From Synechococcus sp. CS-1332 (lineage in GTDB: Bacteria; Cyanobacteriota; Cyanobacteriia; PCC-6307; Cyanobiaceae): a stretch of 64,000 nt of DNA. Positions 1-7,451 of this stretch are shown here, piece after piece; the first letter of the stretch is position 1, and each line of letters starts with the position of its first letter. The stretch lies in the NCBI RefSeq assembly GCF_025127995.1, contig NZ_JAHLYP010000020.1:1-64000 (forward strand), given 5' to 3'. A model generated the notes under the pieces. The model was given only the letters and a program-made list of their open reading frames with translations. It had not been told where the DNA came from and did not search any database. Made by a program: the position numbers and the translations under genes.

Positions 1-923
1 ATCGCCGGGCGCCGCCTCCGGGGACGGGATGCCTGGGCGGTCTGGGCAGGGGATGGTGTCACCGCAGGGGTTTCCGTCGCCGCGGGGACGACGGGCAGCG
101 GCGGCGGCGCCGGCGGCTCGCCGAGACATCCGCTGCGGCCAATGGCCACAGTCACGTCGTCGCCGCTGCCCTCGCGGCTGACCCGATCCAGCGCCTCCGG
201 CAGGGTGCTGGCCGCCTCGGCGCCACTGCGGGCCAACCAGGCCGCCAGGGTGAGGAAGTCGCCGTCGGTGGCACAGGATTTGCGGATGCCGTCGGTGCAG
301 AGCACCAGGGCGAAGTCGCTGTCGTCGGCGACGATCGGATGCAGGCCCGCCCGGCGGGCGAACAGGGCCGCCGCCCGGGGCTGGCAGAGGCTGCAGGTGG
401 CTTCTCCGAGCGCGGTGGGCTCGTTCTCCTCCTCCAGCAGCCGGGCGCGGCCGTCCGCCTCCACCCGCACCAGGTCCCAGTCGCCCAGGCCCGTATGGCC
501 CCACCAGCGGGTCGTCATCACCACCAGGCCCAGGGTGCTGCCGTAGAGCAGGGGCTCGAAGTCGCCCTCGCCGGGATCGCTCTGCCAGTGGGCCTGCACC
601 GCCTCCAGCCAGCGGCGCTGGACCGCCTCGGGCAGGTCGCGGGCCAGCCAGCGGCTCCAGTCCCCCTCCCCGTCCCCCGGGGGCGCGGCGGCCAGGGTGT
701 CACCCACCACGGCCAGGGCCGTCTCGCAGGCCAGGCGACTGCCCACCTCGCTGCGCCGGTAGCGGCGCCCTCCGTGGCCATCGGCCACCGCCATCAGCAT
801 CACCGGCTGCCCGTCGCCATCGCGCAGCTCACCGCAGAGCACGGCGTCCTGACAGGGGCGGCCGGCACGCCGGTGGGCGGCACCGGCCCGGCTGGCACCG
901 ATCGGCGCCGCCCAGCGGGTCAC
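1..923 (-). CDS. PP2C-family Ser/Thr protein phosphatase (3' end cut by window edge)
   Basis: Metal-dependent protein phosphatase that would remove phosphate from Ser/Thr residues of proteins. From the GTG at 923 the frame is open to the window edge (about 307 codons). Visible motifs: CQDA near residue 24, the metal-binding DGHGG at 48-52, LCTDGIR in the middle and GSGDDVTVA near the end of the catalytic domain, followed by a Pro/Ala-rich tail that leaves the window. The GTG overlaps the TGA of the upstream vWA gene, so the two are probably translationally coupled; a second in-frame GTG lies at 926. Together with the kinase, vWA and FHA genes it forms a kinase/phosphatase module. The true C-terminus is not visible. 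Confidence 0.85.
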   Translation of the reverse strand, partial: MTRWAAPIGASRAGAAHRRAGRPCQDAVLCGELRDGDGQPVMLMAVADGHGGRRYRRSEVGSRLACETALAVVGDTLAAAPPGDGEGDWSRWLARDLPEAVQRRWLEAVQAHWQSDPGEGDFEPLLYGSTLGLVVMTTRWWGHTGLGDWDLVRVEADGRARLLEEENEPTALGEATCSLCQPRAAALFARRAGLHPIVADDSDFALVLCTDGIRKSCATDGDFLTLAAWLARSGAEAASTLPEALDRVSREGSGDDVTVAIGRSGCLGEPPAPPPLPVVPAATETPAVTPSPAQTAQASRPRRRRPA

Positions 924-1657
924 CACACCAGGGGACCGACGTCGTCGGTGGGATCCAGCACGGTGGGGGGCAGATCCGGCAGGGGGATGTTGCCCGCCGC
1001 GGGCTCAAGGGGCGTTTCGCTGACCCGGCTGGCAGGCATCGAGGCGGCCCCCACCACCGCCGTGGAGGCCCACTGGATGTACTGGGCCAGGGAAGTGGCG
1101 TTGCTGGCCTGCAGGGGGCGGCGGGGCGAGCGGCCCGACGTCGCCGGTTCCGTGCCGATGAACCGCTGCAGCACCTCCAGGTCGGCGTCATGGCCCAGGG
1201 CGATGGCCAGGCGCACCGCCTTCTGGGCCCAGGGCACCCGCAGCAAAGCCTCGAGGCCGGCGGCGAAATCATCGGTGGGCTGGCCATCGGAGATCAGCAC
1301 CAGCACCGGCGGCAGGGCGCGCACCTCCATCGGCGGGGTCTGCAGGGCCGCCGCCACCAGCTTCAGGGCCTCCCCCATCGCCGTGATGCCGCCGGCCTGC
1401 AGATCGCGCCATTCCAGCTGGTCCACCGGCGTGGGGGACTCGATGTGCCACGCGGCGTGGTCGGCGAAGCGCACGGCCCGCACCAGCACCCGCGCTTCCG
1501 GGTTGTCCCGGGCCACCGCCGCCATCCCCGGCAGCGACTGGCGGATGGCCTGGTTGAGGGCCTGCATCTTGCCCGACGCCGCCATCGAGCCGGAGCAGTC
1601 GCAGAGGTAGAGGAAGTGGAGCGGGCGGTTGGCCAGCTTGACGTCAGGAAACGGCAT
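920..1657 (-). CDS. vWA (MIDAS) domain protein, TerY-like
   Basis: A 245-residue von Willebrand factor A domain protein, probably a cytosolic scaffold that binds partners through a metal ion. The MIDAS motif DCSGSM is at residues 20-25, followed by a typical alternating fold and a second conserved stretch, LVLISDGQPTDD, in the middle. The last 60 residues are proline-rich and look unstructured. It lies 3 nt after the kinase stop codon and overlaps the PP2C start by 4 nt, which places it in one operon with both. In the TerY-P triad known from tellurium-resistance-type gene clusters, a vWA protein, a PP2C phosphatase and a zinc-ribbon kinase occur together; this gene fits that role by context. 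Confidence 0.85.
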   Translation of the reverse strand: MPFPDVKLANRPLHFLYLCDCSGSMAASGKMQALNQAIRQSLPGMAAVARDNPEARVLVRAVRFADHAAWHIESPTPVDQLEWRDLQAGGITAMGEALKLVAAALQTPPMEVRALPPVLVLISDGQPTDDFAAGLEALLRVPWAQKAVRLAIALGHDADLEVLQRFIGTEPATSGRSPRRPLQASNATSLAQYIQWASTAVVGAASMPASRVSETPLEPAAGNIPLPDLPPTVLDPTDDVGPLVW

Positions 1658-1660
1658 CTC

Positions 1661-3016
1661 TCAGGCGGCGGGGGATGGCCGGGTGGGGCGCTGCACGGCG
1701 ATCGGACCCGCGGGGGTGTGGATCCGGGCGAGTGCGGCGAGGCTACAGCTCTCGCCAGGCTGCACCGGCTGGACGCGGCCGTCGGGGGTCTCGGCGCTCC
1801 AGGCGGCCGCCTGGAGGTTGCGCAGCCCCAGCCGCCGGGGATCCTGGGGATGGGCCACCACCCGGGCCAGTGGCCGGCGCAGGTCCTCCCCTGCCAGGGC
1901 ATCGAAGTGGTGGGGGTGCAACTCGTTATCGGGCGCCGCCAGCACGGCCCCATGGGGCAGCACCAGCGTGATCGGCTCCGGCAGCGGTGACGCGCAGCTC
2001 CAGCACAACGCCGGGGCACCGCTGGCCTGGAAGTTCTCCTGGCCGCAGGCGGGGCAGAGGGCACGGCGGTCGAGGGTGCGGGCCAGCTCCTGCTTCCACT
2101 GGCCGGTGAGGGCGCGGCGGGAGGGCTGCTTCATGCCGCGGCAGAAGGTCTGCTCGAACAGCGCCTGGAGGGGGCGGGGGTAGATGGGCCAGGTGATCAG
2201 GGCGGCCACATGCTCGATCGGGTCGGGCCTGTTGCGATCGTCGACCGGATCGAAGATGAACACCGGGTCCTCGCCGCAGAGGCGGCGGCGGGCCGGCTCG
2301 TCGAGGCAGCGGATCGCCAGCTCCATCTGACCCTTGAGGGGATCGTGGCGGGTGAGCAGCCGGAACAGCAGCACCGCCAGGGAGAAGAGGTCGCTGTCCG
2401 CCCCGGGCCGAGCCTGCCCCAGCAGGACCTCCGGGGCCATGAAGCCCGGGGTTCCCAGCACGGCGCCGTGGTCGGCACCATCCACCGCGACGTTGTCGTT
2501 GTCGCAGATGAGGATGCTGCCGCCGCCGGGCTCCAGGAAGAGGTTGCCCAGCGAGACGTCCTTGTAACAGAGCCCCGCCAGGTGCAGGGCATGGAAGGCG
2601 TCGGCGAGGCCGAAACAGGCGCGCAGCACCTGGCGCAGGCCGATCGCCAGCCGGCCGGCGGCATGCTCGCTGGCGCCCACGTAGGCGGGAGGCCGCAGGG
2701 GCATCAGGTAGCCGAAGCTCTCCTGCCGGAGGCGGATCAGGGGGCGGCTGGCGGGGCTGACCCGCAGCAGGGCGATCGGCCAGAGGAAATCCTCGTTCGG
2801 AGCGGTGGCCCGGATGCTCGCCACCAGGCGCCGCTCCAGGCCCCCGTCACGGGCGATGCAGGCCGGCAGGTACCACTTCAGGGCCAGCCGCTCCCCCTCC
2901 AGGTCCACCTCGTAGACCTGGCCCTGGGTGCCGCCCCCGAGGCCCCGGATGATCTGGAGCGGGGCCTCCAGACCCTCGAAGTCCAGGCTGGCGCCCTCCG
3001 GCAGGATCCAGCTCAT
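1661..3016 (-). CDS. Atypical Ser/Thr protein kinase with C-terminal zinc ribbon (TerY-P triad type)
   Basis: A 451-residue Hanks-like kinase. The glycine-rich loop GLGGGTQGQV is at residues 25-34 and the ATP-binding lysine (ALKWY) at 47. The catalytic loop reads YKDVSLGN instead of HRDLKPEN: the catalytic Asp and metal-binding Asn are kept, but the HRD histidine and the Lys are not. The DFG position reads CDNDN. After the kinase fold comes a four-cysteine zinc ribbon (CPAC...CWSC) and a beta-rich tail. These features match the kinases of TerY-P triads. The start ATG at 3016 overlaps the stop of the FHA gene (ATGA); the frame is open further upstream but antisense-like in composition. Likely substrates are the adjacent FHA-linked proteins (inference). 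Confidence 0.85.
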   Translation of the reverse strand: MSWILPEGASLDFEGLEAPLQIIRGLGGGTQGQVYEVDLEGERLALKWYLPACIARDGGLERRLVASIRATAPNEDFLWPIALLRVSPASRPLIRLRQESFGYLMPLRPPAYVGASEHAAGRLAIGLRQVLRACFGLADAFHALHLAGLCYKDVSLGNLFLEPGGGSILICDNDNVAVDGADHGAVLGTPGFMAPEVLLGQARPGADSDLFSLAVLLFRLLTRHDPLKGQMELAIRCLDEPARRRLCGEDPVFIFDPVDDRNRPDPIEHVAALITWPIYPRPLQALFEQTFCRGMKQPSRRALTGQWKQELARTLDRRALCPACGQENFQASGAPALCWSCASPLPEPITLVLPHGAVLAAPDNELHPHHFDALAGEDLRRPLARVVAHPQDPRRLGLRNLQAAAWSAETPDGRVQPVQPGESCSLAALARIHTPAGPIAVQRPTRPSPAA

Positions 3017-3705
3017 GGCCGTCGCCCCGCCGCCGGGGCCGCTCCCATGGCCTTGCGGATGCCGTTGCGGTGGGCCAGGGCCGTCTCCAGGCTGTCGAAG
3101 CGATGGCGGTAGGCCAGGCCGTCCTGCAGCGTCACCTCCAGCAGATGCTCCCAGCGGGAGCCCAGCAGGATCCAGCCCGCCAGCGCCCCCAGCTGCAGGG
3201 GCCAGAACAGCCAGGGGAAGGGAAGCAGCAACAGGCCGCCCAGGCAGAGCAGCAGCCACCAGCTGAAGGCCTGGGGATGGCGCCGGCGGCTGCGCACGTA
3301 GGCCGAGCGGATCCGATCGAGGGGCAGGGAGCGGCCGGCGAAATCCAGCTGGCCGGCGGCCGGCTGGGCCAGCACCGGAGCCGCGGGGCGGCTGGTGGCG
3401 CGGAACTGCAGCACCGGCCCCTTCAGGCCCAGCCGGATCTCGTCCCCGTCCGAGAGGGGCCGGCAGTCCCGCAGCCGGGCGCCTTCGAGGTAGGTGCCGT
3501 TGGCGCTGCCCAGGTCGCAAAGCAGCCACTGGTCCGCCCGTGTTCGCGACACCCGCACCAGGGCGTGGTGGCGGGAGACGCCCTGGGCCTGGCTCAGGCA
3601 GAGGCCGCTGGCCGGATCGCGACCGATCGAGAGGGGCGTGCGGGGATCCAGCGCCACGCTGCGGCCGGGATCGTCCCGCAGCAGCAGCCGGGGGTGGGCG
3701 CTCAT
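3013..3705 (-). CDS. FHA domain membrane protein
   Basis: A 230-residue protein with an N-terminal forkhead-associated domain (residues about 20-95) that should bind phosphothreonine peptides: SIGRD, the SRHHA core and LGSANGTYL are all present. A linker is followed by two closely spaced hydrophobic segments (about 145-180) rich in Leu and Trp, then a short basic cytosolic tail. It should therefore dock phosphorylated partners at the membrane. It overlaps both neighbours by 4 nt (ATGA), the 94-aa membrane protein upstream and the kinase downstream, which makes co-expression very likely. Confidence 0.85.
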   Translation of the reverse strand: MSAHPRLLLRDDPGRSVALDPRTPLSIGRDPASGLCLSQAQGVSRHHALVRVSRTRADQWLLCDLGSANGTYLEGARLRDCRPLSDGDEIRLGLKGPVLQFRATSRPAAPVLAQPAAGQLDFAGRSLPLDRIRSAYVRSRRRHPQAFSWWLLLCLGGLLLLPFPWLFWPLQLGALAGWILLGSRWEHLLEVTLQDGLAYRHRFDSLETALAHRNGIRKAMGAAPAAGRRP

Positions 3706-3986
3706 CGGGGGTCGTCTCCGGGCTCAGGGCGGCGGCCCAGGCGCCGGTCGGCCTGGAACCGGCCCCACCAGCCCATCGGTTCCCCCTCCCTCCAGGGAAT
3801 CACCCGCCCGGGGAACAGCAAGGCCGAGGCCGCCAGCGCCAGCGCCACCAGGAGCAGGAGCAGCAGCACCCAGCCGGGGATCGCCCCCACCCAGGTGGCG
3901 GCAAAGCTGGCCCGCACCGCGTACACCCCGATGGTCAGGGCGGTCCAGATGCGGAAAGGTGCCCATGGATCCCGCCGTTGCTCCAC
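3702..3986 (-). CDS. Small two-TM membrane protein, first gene of the kinase operon
   Basis: A 94-residue protein of unknown function. Two hydrophobic stretches (about residues 12-34 and 37-58, the second very Leu/Val/Ala-rich) are followed by a charged tail containing WREGEPMGWWGRFQ and an Arg-rich end. It overlaps the FHA gene by 4 nt and is the first gene of the minus-strand operon, facing the FHA-penicillin-binding protein gene across a 218-bp divergent region. By position it may be a membrane anchor or assembly factor of the signalling complex, but nothing in the sequence proves that. Confidence 0.65.
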   Translation of the reverse strand: MEQRRDPWAPFRIWTALTIGVYAVRASFAATWVGAIPGWVLLLLLLVALALAASALLFPGRVIPWREGEPMGWWGRFQADRRLGRRPEPGDDPR

Positions 3987-4204
3987 CTGGCCGGCCGCTC
4001 CGATCGCTGCGGGTAGCGTATGGGAGCAAGGCAGATGGGCCGGGGATGGTGGGGACGACGGAGCAGGCGTCGCCTGGCGACATCACCGCACCTGGCACCG
4101 CACCCCACACCGCACCCCACACCGCACCCGAACCCGCCACGGGTTGGCGGAGCCTCCAGCAGGCCCTTCGCCGCACCGATCCGGATGGCGGCCGTCGCCG
4201 GGCC
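3987..4204. promoter_or_regulatory. Divergent intergenic region between the kinase operon and the FHA-PBP gene
   Basis: This 218-bp stretch separates two divergent transcription units and must hold the promoter of the minus-strand operon, and probably that of the plus-strand gene. I see no strong -10/-35 pair. A short tandem repeat lies at 4099-4130. If translation of the penicillin-binding protein begins at the ATG at 4046 instead of 4205, most of this region is coding. Confidence 0.4.
4099..4130. repeat. Short tandem repeat, 12-nt unit, about 2.6 copies
   Basis: The unit CGCACCCCACAC occurs at 4099-4110 and 4111-4122 and is followed by a partial copy. It lies just upstream of the FHA-PBP coding region. 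If the upstream ATG at 4046 is used it would encode an (H-T-A-P)n stretch. It is too short and simple to be a CRISPR or a phase-variation tract. Confidence 0.7.
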
Positions 4205-6343
4205 ATGGCCACGGCCCTGGGGGAACTGAACCGCCACGGCGCCTGGCTGGAACTCTGGATCGGCGGCCAGTGTCGCCGGCATGTGGCCCTGGAGGGCGGT
4301 CGTTACCGCATCGGCCGCGATCCCCTCTGCGAGCTGCAGGCCGACGCCACCGGCGTCAGCCGCGTGCACGCGATCGTGGAGCAGGAGTGCCCCGGCGACC
4401 GCGACTATGTCGGCGAGGATTTCGGCTCCGCCAACGGTCTGTTTCACCGCGATCGCCGCATCCGCGCCATTCACCTGCGGGACGGGGACCGGCTGCAACT
4501 CGGCTCGCCGCTGAAGGGGGAGGCGCCGACCCTGGTGTACCGCCATCCCCGCAGCCCCCTGGGGCAGCTGGTGCACTGGGGGGCGATCGGCGCCCTCGTC
4601 GGCTCGGGCGTGGCCCTGGGGGGCCTGCTGCTGGCCACCACCGTCTCCGGTGGCTCCTCGATCCGGTCGGTGGGCGGGCCGGTGAAGGTGTTCTCGACCG
4701 ATGGCCGCCAGATCGATGCGGCCGAGGGCTCCTCGACGGCCCTGCCCACCCTGGCCGACTACCCCCTGCACCTGCGCCAGGCCCTGATTGCCTCCGAGGA
4801 CTCCCGCTTCGGCTGGAACAGCGGCATCGACCTGTTCGGCACGCTGCGGTCCCTGGTGCAGGGCACCGGCGGTGGCAGCGGCCTGGCCCAGCAGGTGGCC
4901 CGCATGGTCTACCCGGCCGTGGGCACCGATGTGTCGGTGGCCCGCAAGCTGCGGGAGCTGTGGGTGGCCTGGCAGCTGGAGGCCGGATTCAGCAAGAACC
5001 GGATCCTGAAGATGTACCTCGACCGGGCCTACCTGGGCCTGGGGGCGGAGGGATTCGAGCAGGCGGCCCAGCTCTATTTCCGCAAGTCGGCCAGCGCCCT
5101 GGATGTGGCGGAGTCGGCGTTCCTGGTGGGCCTGCTGCCGAGCCCCAACAGCTACAGCCCCTGCAACCGGGAGAACCCCACCTGGGGAAGGGAGCGCCGC
5201 GACCTGGTGCTGGGGCGGATGCACGCCGAGGGCTACCTCTCCGACCAGGCGCTGATCGACGCCCGCCGCCGCCCCCTCAACATCGATCCCTCCGCCTGCC
5301 GCGACTCCACCTACTCCAGCTATCCCTTCTTCAGCGATTACGTGATCGGCGAGCTGGAGGGGCGGCGCTTCGCCCTCGACCTCAGCAGTGCGGAGGCCCG
5401 GGGCAACTACGCGGTGATCAGCAGCATCGACCCCCGCCTGCAGGCCATCGCCCAGAAGCAGCTGAAGGCGTTCCTGGAGGGGCCGGGGGTCCGGGCCGGG
5501 CTCACCCAGGGCGCCCTGATCTCGATCGACTACGGCACCGGGGCGATCCTGGCCTACGTCGGCGGCGGCGATTACAGCCGCTCGAGCTTCGATCGGGTGC
5601 AGGCCCTGCGTCAGCCCGGATCCACCTTCAAGCTGTTCTCCTTCCTGGCGGCCCTGGAGGCCGGCGTGAAGCCCGGCGATGCCGTCTCCTGCGCCCCCCT
5701 GGCCTACGTGGCAGGCTGCCGTGGCGGGGGTGGCATCACCAGTGTGGCGGCGGGCTTCGCCAACTCCGACAATGTGGTGGCCCTGCGGCTGGCCCAGCAG
5801 GCCGGCCTGAACAAGGTGGTGGCCAAGGCCCGCCAGCTGGGTATCAGCACGCCCATGGAGGAGAGCGTCTCGATGGTGCTGGGCGGCAAGGAGACCTACC
5901 TCTACGAGCTGGCGGGGGCCTATGCCGTGGTGGCCAACGGCGGCCGCTCGGTGCCCCTCCACGGTGTCAAACGCATCTATGACCTGGGCATCTGCGGCTC
6001 GGTGCGGTCCCTGGCCGACTGCCCCCCCAGCGGCGTCACCACACCGGTCGGCGAGCTGCCCCGTCAGCTGATCGAACCAGCGGTGGCCGCCGAAATGGAT
6101 GCCCTGCTGCGGCAGGTCGTGAGCGGCGGCACCGGCGCCGCCGCCGCCGTGGTGGCCGATGCCCGCGGCAAGACCGGCACCACCGACAACGGCGTCGATG
6201 TGCTGTTCGTGGGCTACTCCCCCTCCAGCCGCATCCTCACCGGCATCTGGATGGGCAACGACGACAACCGCCCCGCCCAGGCCGCCTCCGGCGCCCTGGT
6301 GGCCCAGCTGTGGGGGCAGGTCATGCGCGCCCTGGCGAGCTGA
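4205..6343 (+). CDS. Class A penicillin-binding protein with N-terminal FHA domain
   Basis: A 712-residue bifunctional peptidoglycan synthase. The N-terminus is a cytosolic FHA domain (about residues 15-105: YRIGRDP, GVSRVHA, FGSANGL), then a single transmembrane helix (about 121-145). The glycosyltransferase domain (GT51) keeps its catalytic Glu at 198 (SEDSRFGW) and the second Glu in ARKLRELW. The transpeptidase domain has the SxxK serine at 473 (STFK), the SxN motif SDN at 521-523 and KTG at 656-658, so both activities look intact. An alternative ATG at 4046 would add 53 residues of low complexity. The FHA domain would let a threonine kinase recruit or tune the synthase; the divergent kinase operon is the obvious candidate. 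Confidence 0.9.
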   Translation: MATALGELNRHGAWLELWIGGQCRRHVALEGGRYRIGRDPLCELQADATGVSRVHAIVEQECPGDRDYVGEDFGSANGLFHRDRRIRAIHLRDGDRLQLGSPLKGEAPTLVYRHPRSPLGQLVHWGAIGALVGSGVALGGLLLATTVSGGSSIRSVGGPVKVFSTDGRQIDAAEGSSTALPTLADYPLHLRQALIASEDSRFGWNSGIDLFGTLRSLVQGTGGGSGLAQQVARMVYPAVGTDVSVARKLRELWVAWQLEAGFSKNRILKMYLDRAYLGLGAEGFEQAAQLYFRKSASALDVAESAFLVGLLPSPNSYSPCNRENPTWGRERRDLVLGRMHAEGYLSDQALIDARRRPLNIDPSACRDSTYSSYPFFSDYVIGELEGRRFALDLSSAEARGNYAVISSIDPRLQAIAQKQLKAFLEGPGVRAGLTQGALISIDYGTGAILAYVGGGDYSRSSFDRVQALRQPGSTFKLFSFLAALEAGVKPGDAVSCAPLAYVAGCRGGGGITSVAAGFANSDNVVALRLAQQAGLNKVVAKARQLGISTPMEESVSMVLGGKETYLYELAGAYAVVANGGRSVPLHGVKRIYDLGICGSVRSLADCPPSGVTTPVGELPRQLIEPAVAAEMDALLRQVVSGGTGAAAAVVADARGKTGTTDNGVDVLFVGYSPSSRILTGIWMGNDDNRPAQAASGALVAQLWGQVMRALAS

Positions 6344-6344
6344 A

Positions 6345-7451
6345 TCAGACCAGCCAGCCCAGGCTGCTGGCCAGCTCCTGGGCGCGGGTGACCAGGGCCC
6401 AGGCCGTTCCCAGCACGGTGCCCCACCACCAGGGGCTGCTCCAGAGACGGGCCATGGGGCTGCTGCTGTCCTGGGGATCGCGGCGGGGCAGCTGCCAGCC
6501 CAGCTGCACGGCGCCAAAGATCACCAGCAACACCCAGGCGGGGATCTCCACCGGCCCCAAGACGAAGGGGTGGGCCTTCCAGTGCAACAGGCTGAGAACC
6601 GAAGCCAGGGCGATCACGGCCGCGATCGGCCCAGAGGCCCCGTCCCAGTGCCTCAGCACCCGGGCCCGGCGGGCCACCAGCACCGCCGGCGCCGTGGTGG
6701 CCAGGGCGGTGAGCGAGTAGCGCAGCAGCAGGGAGGACAGGGGCAGCGATGAGCCACCCAGCACGATCGTCAGCATCACCAGGTTGAACAGGGCCTCGCG
6801 GTTGGCCGCATGGATCCAGGGGGCGGTGATCCAGCACCAGGCACGGCGGGGATCACCGCTGGCCTCCAGGGCCAGGGGCCAGCGGCGGCGAAGGGCCCGC
6901 AGCGGGCCGAGGGCCAGGGCCTGGAGCAGGGCCAGAGCCACCACCAGCACCACGCCGCTGCCCCAGCGCCAGGGATCGAAAAACCATTGGTCGAGCTCCC
7001 CGCCGGCCCAGAACAGCACCAGGGCGCCTGAAGCCGAGAGCGCCAGCCCTGGACCGAGGGGCCGCAGGCTCACCAGCCAGGGCAGGGGGAAGCGCCCAAC
7101 GGTGGCAGGGGCTACGTCAATGGCCTGATCTTCCCCAGAGGAACGGGGGGGGGCCACACCAGAGCAGGCCTCCAGCAGGTCGAGCAGCTCGGCCAGCACC
7201 TTCGGCGCGTAGATCCCGGCCAGATGCTGGCTGAGGGCGGTGACGGCACTGCGCTGGGGGCCACCCTGCAATTGCAGCACCCGCAGCAGCAGGGGCTGGG
7301 TGGCCAGATCCCGGACGGGTCCGCGCAGGCCCTCTTCCGCCCCAAGGGCGTCAATCAGCCGGTTGGCCAGGGCCTGGGGGTTGTCCAGGCTGACGGAGCC
7401 GGTGTCAATCCACTGGCGCAGTTGCAGACCCAGGTCCCGACCCTTGCCCAT
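6345..7451 (-). CDS. Rhomboid-like membrane protein, probably lacking protease activity
   Basis: A 368-residue protein. About 115 soluble helical N-terminal residues are followed by some six transmembrane segments. A rhomboid signature is visible: WIHAANREALFN resembles the HxxxxHxxxN motif of TM2 with Glu in place of the second His, and GASG at 271-274 matches the GxSG motif with the nucleophile at Ser273. The last transmembrane segment, where active rhomboids carry the catalytic His (consensus like AHxxG), reads SPWWWGTVLG with no His. I therefore infer a rhomboid pseudoprotease. It begins 32 nt after atpC and may be co-transcribed with the ATP synthase genes; it converges on the FHA-PBP gene. 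Confidence 0.65.
   Translation of the reverse strand: MGKGRDLGLQLRQWIDTGSVSLDNPQALANRLIDALGAEEGLRGPVRDLATQPLLLRVLQLQGGPQRSAVTALSQHLAGIYAPKVLAELLDLLEACSGVAPPRSSGEDQAIDVAPATVGRFPLPWLVSLRPLGPGLALSASGALVLFWAGGELDQWFFDPWRWGSGVVLVVALALLQALALGPLRALRRRWPLALEASGDPRRAWCWITAPWIHAANREALFNLVMLTIVLGGSSLPLSSLLLRYSLTALATTAPAVLVARRARVLRHWDGASGPIAAVIALASVLSLLHWKAHPFVLGPVEIPAWVLLVIFGAVQLGWQLPRRDPQDSSSPMARLWSSPWWWGTVLGTAWALVTRAQELASSLGWLV

Follow-up and report, generated by a model that had tools for sequence, protein, structure and literature searches.

The first 6,343 positions of the window analysed here, a stretch of 64,000 nucleotides from Synechococcus sp. CS-1332 (contig NZ_JAHLYP010000020.1; genome total 2.97 Mb), raise the question of whether a bacterial phosphorylation module can have a cell-wall enzyme as its output. 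Five minus-strand genes, encoding a 94-residue membrane protein, an FHA membrane protein, a zinc-ribbon kinase, a vWA protein and a PP2C phosphatase, lie opposite a single plus-strand gene for a class A penicillin-binding protein (PBP) with an FHA domain, referred to as PBP-B. The conserved locus suggests that wall synthesis is switched by phosphorylation, in a manner that differs from the well-known one in tubercle bacilli and their relatives. The interpretation towards which we lean, with some reserve, is that a phosphorylation triad of the TerY-P type is wired to the peptidoglycan synthase: the kinase would mark a threonine of a partner from the locus, the FHA domain of PBP-B would bind the mark and the PP2C would erase it. 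The analysis is wholly comparative, and the counts within the family are mutually dependent through relatedness.

The linkage of the kinase to PBP-B is close to complete. The kinase is found in 18 of the 121 family genomes; 16 of them also have a PBP-B orthologue (57-97% identity), which all 103 genomes without the kinase lack (Fisher p 4e-18, uncorrected for kinship); the orthologue is always adjacent to and divergent from the kinase array, with the 94-residue and FHA genes between. Among named genomes, which contributed 56 loci of the family, one of them cut, PBP-B and the kinase remain neighbours, separated by the small membrane genes, in 53 of the 55 testable loci. The original prediction had staked itself beforehand on the conservation of this neighbourhood, and the FHA-PBP and the 94-residue gene do indeed travel with the kinase. 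Many of the locus counts are not independent, because most loci share a flank consisting of a rhomboid-domain gene and atpC/atpD, and the shared flank would fit an arrangement that reflects inherited gene order alone, with no functional coupling. At least six loci (G101, L106, L111, L113, L114, L115), however, keep the block intact without this flank, which argues that the linkage is not merely background gene order. Furthermore, within genus g34 the kinase and PBP-B are both present in G101 and both absent from G034 and G075, and a PBP-B orthologue without the triad was never seen. Finally, the gain of the FHA reader accompanies the gain of the kinase writer: the present genome carries three FHA domains, two in the block and one in an ordinary FHA-PBP, and in 11 triad genomes 22 of the 23 FHA domains outside the ordinary FHA-PBP are located at the triad locus, while five triad-less genomes have none. 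We regard inherited order by itself as the least credible account of the block.

The resemblance to a TerY-P triad, part of the original prediction, was borne out. A zinc-ribbon kinase, a vWA protein with a metal ion-dependent adhesion site (MIDAS) and a PP2C are encoded in one operon-like array, and the block shares this arrangement, as well as the C-terminal zinc ribbon of the kinase, with the triad of TerY-like vWA protein, zinc-ribbon Ser/Thr kinase and PP2C described in PMC11090510 and PMC4978471. The catalytic residues of the kinase and the PP2C look intact: K47, D153, N158 and D172 of the kinase, the MIDAS residues of the vWA protein (D20, S22 and S24 of the DxSxS motif, T92 and D124) and the metal-ligand Asp of the PP2C are invariant in 18/18, and the HRD motif of the kinase is replaced by YKD. 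The AlphaFold2 model of the kinase (pLDDT 92.5, pTM 0.92) has a kinase fold by Foldseek, with kinase domains as the sole matches listed for the whole model, and the zinc-ribbon Cys321, Cys324, Cys338 and Cys341 are invariant in 41 homologues. The kinase is also, as had been anticipated, not of the PknB/PASTA type, since Pfam gives Pkinase alone and the NCBIfam PknB_PASTA model scores 21.9 bits versus a cut-off of 450. The only conserved Thr in its activation segment is the structural one of the P+1 loop, which makes a PknB-like activation through phosphorylation of the loop appear unlikely. The PP2C is adjacent in every uncut block, and in most relatives its C-terminal part contains a hydrophobic, transmembrane-like segment followed by a further domain; here the protein is truncated because base 1 of the window is base 1 of contig C2, and the missing C-terminal part is found at C10:38472-38879. 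After the zinc ribbon, the kinase continues into a beta-rich region (residues 343-451, window 1664-1990) that is conserved in all compared triad kinases, has no recognised homologue and is FHA-like by eye alone; a hidden FHA domain was rejected at this place, the profile comparison giving a probability of 0.8%.

Homologous kinases with 38-44% identity occur in Chloroflexi, Methylococcales and others, and genes for vWA and PP2C proteins lie near most of them. The vWA protein is 47-55% identical to the vWA proteins beside distant kinases, and the PADLOC TerY model matches it weakly (E 0.005). TerY-P triads have been described with DNA-processing, defence and tellurite-resistance genes. Their occurrence with restriction and defence systems (PMC11090510, PMC4978471) and weak PADLOC matches of the kinase would fit a stress or anti-phage module with the PBP gene adjacent by chance. 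In contrast to such modules, a comparison of gene families over 20 kb around the relatives showed no recognisable ter, restriction, nuclease, helicase or DNA-processing gene; such partners are typical of the triads rather than required. Moreover, in most genera the block holds a stable position between the rhomboid/atp and housekeeping genes, and its partners are envelope proteins: the FHA membrane protein, the 94-residue protein and the FHA-PBP are all missing from the distant triads. A defence or stress role with a chance neighbour therefore seems to us quite improbable.

The predicted class A PBP with an FHA domain, divergent from the kinase genes, was confirmed by Pfam (Transgly, Transpeptidase, FHA). 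The motifs EDSRF, STFK and KTGTT are present in the window protein; the counts of STFK and KTGTT across PBP-B loci fall below 53, with some loci cut by contig ends. The R, S, H and N residues of the phosphothreonine-binding FHA motifs (GR, SxxH and NG; PMC1262709) are invariant in the PBP-B FHA domain (54/54). A start at 4205 was considered for the gene and rejected, as the N-terminal reading frame is conserved further upstream, which makes the ATG at 4046 the most likely start.

Nearly all oxygenic cyanobacteria have a class A PBP with an FHA domain at its N-terminus, and PBP-B, which has the same architecture, falls inside the clade of these proteins. In a tree of 41 sequences, the PBP-B proteins group together (100/100) behind a stem of 1.44 changes per site, with the ordinary FHA-PBP from their own family as the sister group (98/88), and PBP-B is thus a monophyletic, fast-diverged duplicate of the ordinary cyanobacterial FHA-PBP. 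As the fusion is old and general in cyanobacteria, the novelty lies in a diverged second copy locked to the triad. In three genomes of genus g9 (G009, G092, G115) PBP-B is the one FHA-PBP found, and the ordinary copy seems lost. The abundance of FHA-PBPs in cyanobacteria where the triad is absent, along with a second kinase gene elsewhere in the present genome (on C43), would also fit a situation in which the PBP-B FHA domain answers to another kinase, as is presumably true of the ordinary FHA-PBP, while the neighbouring triad has a task of its own. Unlike the ordinary protein, however, PBP-B always comes with the triad, and the linkage outlasts changes of the flank, and we consider control by another kinase improbable.

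If the triad does act on PBP-B, the mark would most plausibly lie in the vWA protein. A scan for conserved threonines gave one in a linear tail, Thr232 of the vWA protein within the motif PLPDLPPTxxDP, and Thr is found at this position in 53/53 family members. It is therefore proposed, with moderate confidence and on conservation grounds, that the PBP-B FHA domain has this tail, phosphorylated at Thr232, as its ligand. In the favoured mechanism, the kinase would act as the writer and phosphorylate a Thr on a partner from the same locus, with the vWA tail as the best candidate. The cytosolic FHA domain of PBP-B would then bind the phosphothreonine and thereby recruit PBP-B to the triad at the membrane; the binding would switch or position the activity of the synthase. 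The PP2C, probably anchored by its C-terminal transmembrane-like segment, would remove the mark, and its distal domain could, as a speculation, be a sensor for the space outside the membrane. The FHA membrane protein and the 94-residue protein would serve as a membrane scaffold or anchor.

Alternatively, the kinase might dock on PBP-B via the FHA domain and phosphorylate PBP-B or a nearby envelope protein directly, with no vWA mark being read. A precedent exists in the Mycobacterium tuberculosis exporter Rv1747, whose two FHA domains engage the operon kinase PknF and whose function is modulated by phosphorylation (PMC3908365); this precedent counts for the favoured mechanism as well. In addition, the N-terminus of PBP-B is MxGTTEQ-like in all relatives of the genus of the window. 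The GTTE stretch is invariant at the DNA level also, however, and may therefore be a DNA signal; besides, the structural Thr of the P+1 loop is the one conserved Thr in the activation segment of the kinase, and no Thr in the cytosolic part of PBP-B is conserved across the clade, on which ground an intramolecular ligand in PBP-B was rejected too. Direct phosphorylation appears unlikely to us, although of the competing explanations it deserves the most attention.

Several observations weigh against the proposed triad-to-synthase circuit. First, the lack of a clade-wide cytosolic Thr means that the ligand site is not identified from PBP-B itself. Second, the Asp at +3 of the vWA tail is present in 49/53 and lost in 4/53, and a strict TxxD rule for the tail failed on this account; in addition, 19 distant triads lack the tail Thr although the tail still ends in Trp in 18 of them, and since distant triads keep a DDVW-like end without the Thr the tail may be a mere docking peptide. 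Third, two Prochlorococcus loci (MIT 0701 and AG-412-I05) have the triad without PBP-B, and the genome has the further kinase on C43. Finally, of the two FHA readers originally predicted only that of PBP-B stood as a candidate: the aligned orthologues of the FHA membrane protein retain Arg in 46/53, Ser in 45/53 and Asn in 24/54, so that about half have lost the Asn and others the Arg or Ser. Due to this decay of the phosphothreonine-binding residues the FHA membrane protein is a doubtful reader; its residues are canonical only in this genus and a few others, and elsewhere it is probably a scaffold. Its AlphaFold2 model (pLDDT 85) has a transmembrane hairpin inside a small beta/alpha domain, and its best solved match is the FHA domain of the mycobacterial FhaA (3poa/3oun). 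Orthologues of the 94-residue protein, which has no Pfam or NCBIfam match, are found beside the kinase in every complete block (57-99% identity).

Further cyanobacterial triads occur beside other FHA-fused envelope proteins, which counts in favour of the proposed circuit. In Pegethrix (L133:2165-7975) the triad is accompanied by an FHA membrane protein, an FHA-PrsW protease, a YkuD L,D-transpeptidase, and MORN and RDD proteins, and in Chamaesiphon (L143) it lies beside a PrsW protease and an FHA-FHA-ABC exporter. In the Prochlorococcus MIT 0701 locus (L060:3347-5704) an exporter of the FHA-FHA-ABC type likewise lies at a distance of 4.8 kb from the kinase, and its two FHA domains are all that were found in the matching genome (G029). 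In three genomes of another cyanobacterial family (L166, L167, L169) FHA proteins are encoded in an operon-like array; those of L166 were checked with Pfam. It is conceivable, though in our view less likely than not, that cyanobacteria use the TerY-P triad as a plug-in writer and eraser for FHA-fused envelope machines, which would be a peptidoglycan synthase in the present block and exporters or intramembrane proteases in others, with the phosphorylated vWA tail as the FHA ligand in this family; the examples are few and not randomly sampled, and the wider pattern is accordingly a lead. If true, the triad would gain a direct output, and a second independent invention of phosphothreonine control over wall synthesis would be at hand. 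As side observations, COP23 and trypsin-TPR proteins surround the triad in L060, and the array in L166 (L166:5543-13438) comprises a kinase-vWA fusion, a second kinase, a 554-residue protein with a phosphonate-binding domain, a PP2C and two FHA proteins.

The closest functional parallels are actinobacterial. Like the operon fhaA-fhaB-pstP-rodA-pbpA-pknA-pknB (PMC11898655), the block combines a kinase, a PP2C, two FHA proteins and a PBP, and the FhaA domain is the nearest solved relative of its membrane FHA; in contrast, its kinase is not PknB-like, with no PASTA domain found, a vWA protein is added, and the FHA domain is fused to a class A PBP rather than being part of a separate adaptor. With Rv1747/PknF the block shares FHA domains fused to a membrane effector beside a kinase, and the FHA-FHA-ABC architecture itself recurs in the Prochlorococcus exporter near the triad; the effector here is a peptidoglycan synthase and the operon also contains PP2C and vWA genes. 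While both the triad and the FHA-PBP fusion are known, their conserved union appears to be new: literature searches, in which coverage of subscription papers was poor, gave no description of an FHA-PBP next to a kinase triad and none of a defined output of TerY-P triads. Here an output gene of a known enzyme class, with its own phosphate-reading domain, is present, and writer, eraser, reader and effector are therefore testable from one 6-kb locus. If the proposed circuit is true, wall synthesis came under FHA-mediated kinase control outside the PknB lineage also, and a handle on the regulation of cyanobacterial peptidoglycan would be available.

The features of the block are listed in Table 1. 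The minus-strand genes had been predicted to be five overlapping ones; all five are at the predicted places, with neighbours overlapping by 4, 4 and 7 bp, but the kinase and vWA genes are separated by a 3-bp gap. They probably form an operon, and the divergent region likely holds a shared promoter.

Table 1 Features of the kinase-PBP block in the window.
Feature	Position	Strand	Remarks
94-residue membrane protein	3702..3986	-	GTG start; hydrophobic in two stretches; leads the probable kinase operon
FHA membrane protein	3013..3705	-	Pfam FHA 1.5e-16; N-terminal FHA
FHA domain of FHA membrane protein	3427..3630	-	Canonical R29/S44/N69 in this genome
Zinc-ribbon kinase, atypical Hanks-type, C-terminal beta-rich domain	1661..3016	-	Pfam Pkinase 2.1e-12
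vWA (TerY-like) protein	920..1657	-	Pfam VWA_2 6.6e-6; intact MIDAS; conserved C-terminal tail PLPDLPPTVLDPTDDVGPLVW
PP2C phosphatase, cut by contig end	1..926	-	Pfam PP2C_2 1.8e-25
FHA-class A PBP (PBP-B), 765 residues from ATG 4046	4046..6343	+	Pfam Transgly 1.5e-43, Transpeptidase 2.7e-23, FHA 4.4e-11
Cytosolic FHA domain of PBP-B	4304..4504	+	GR, SRxH, NG residues invariant in 54/54 sequences
Divergent intergenic region, 59 bp	3987..4045		Near-identical throughout the genus

The DNA at 3987-4075, comprising the divergent region and the first PBP-B codons, is almost identical over 14 relatives, which exceeds coding need. A search of viral contigs gave no relatives. A record titled Bifidobacterium breve (L103) contains the cyanobacterial block with most proteins at 62-81% identity and is probably mislabelled. 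The gene at window 6345-7451, between PBP-B and atpC, flanks the block in most relatives; its protein gives a Rhomboid match that is weak (3e-6) but exceeds the cut-off.

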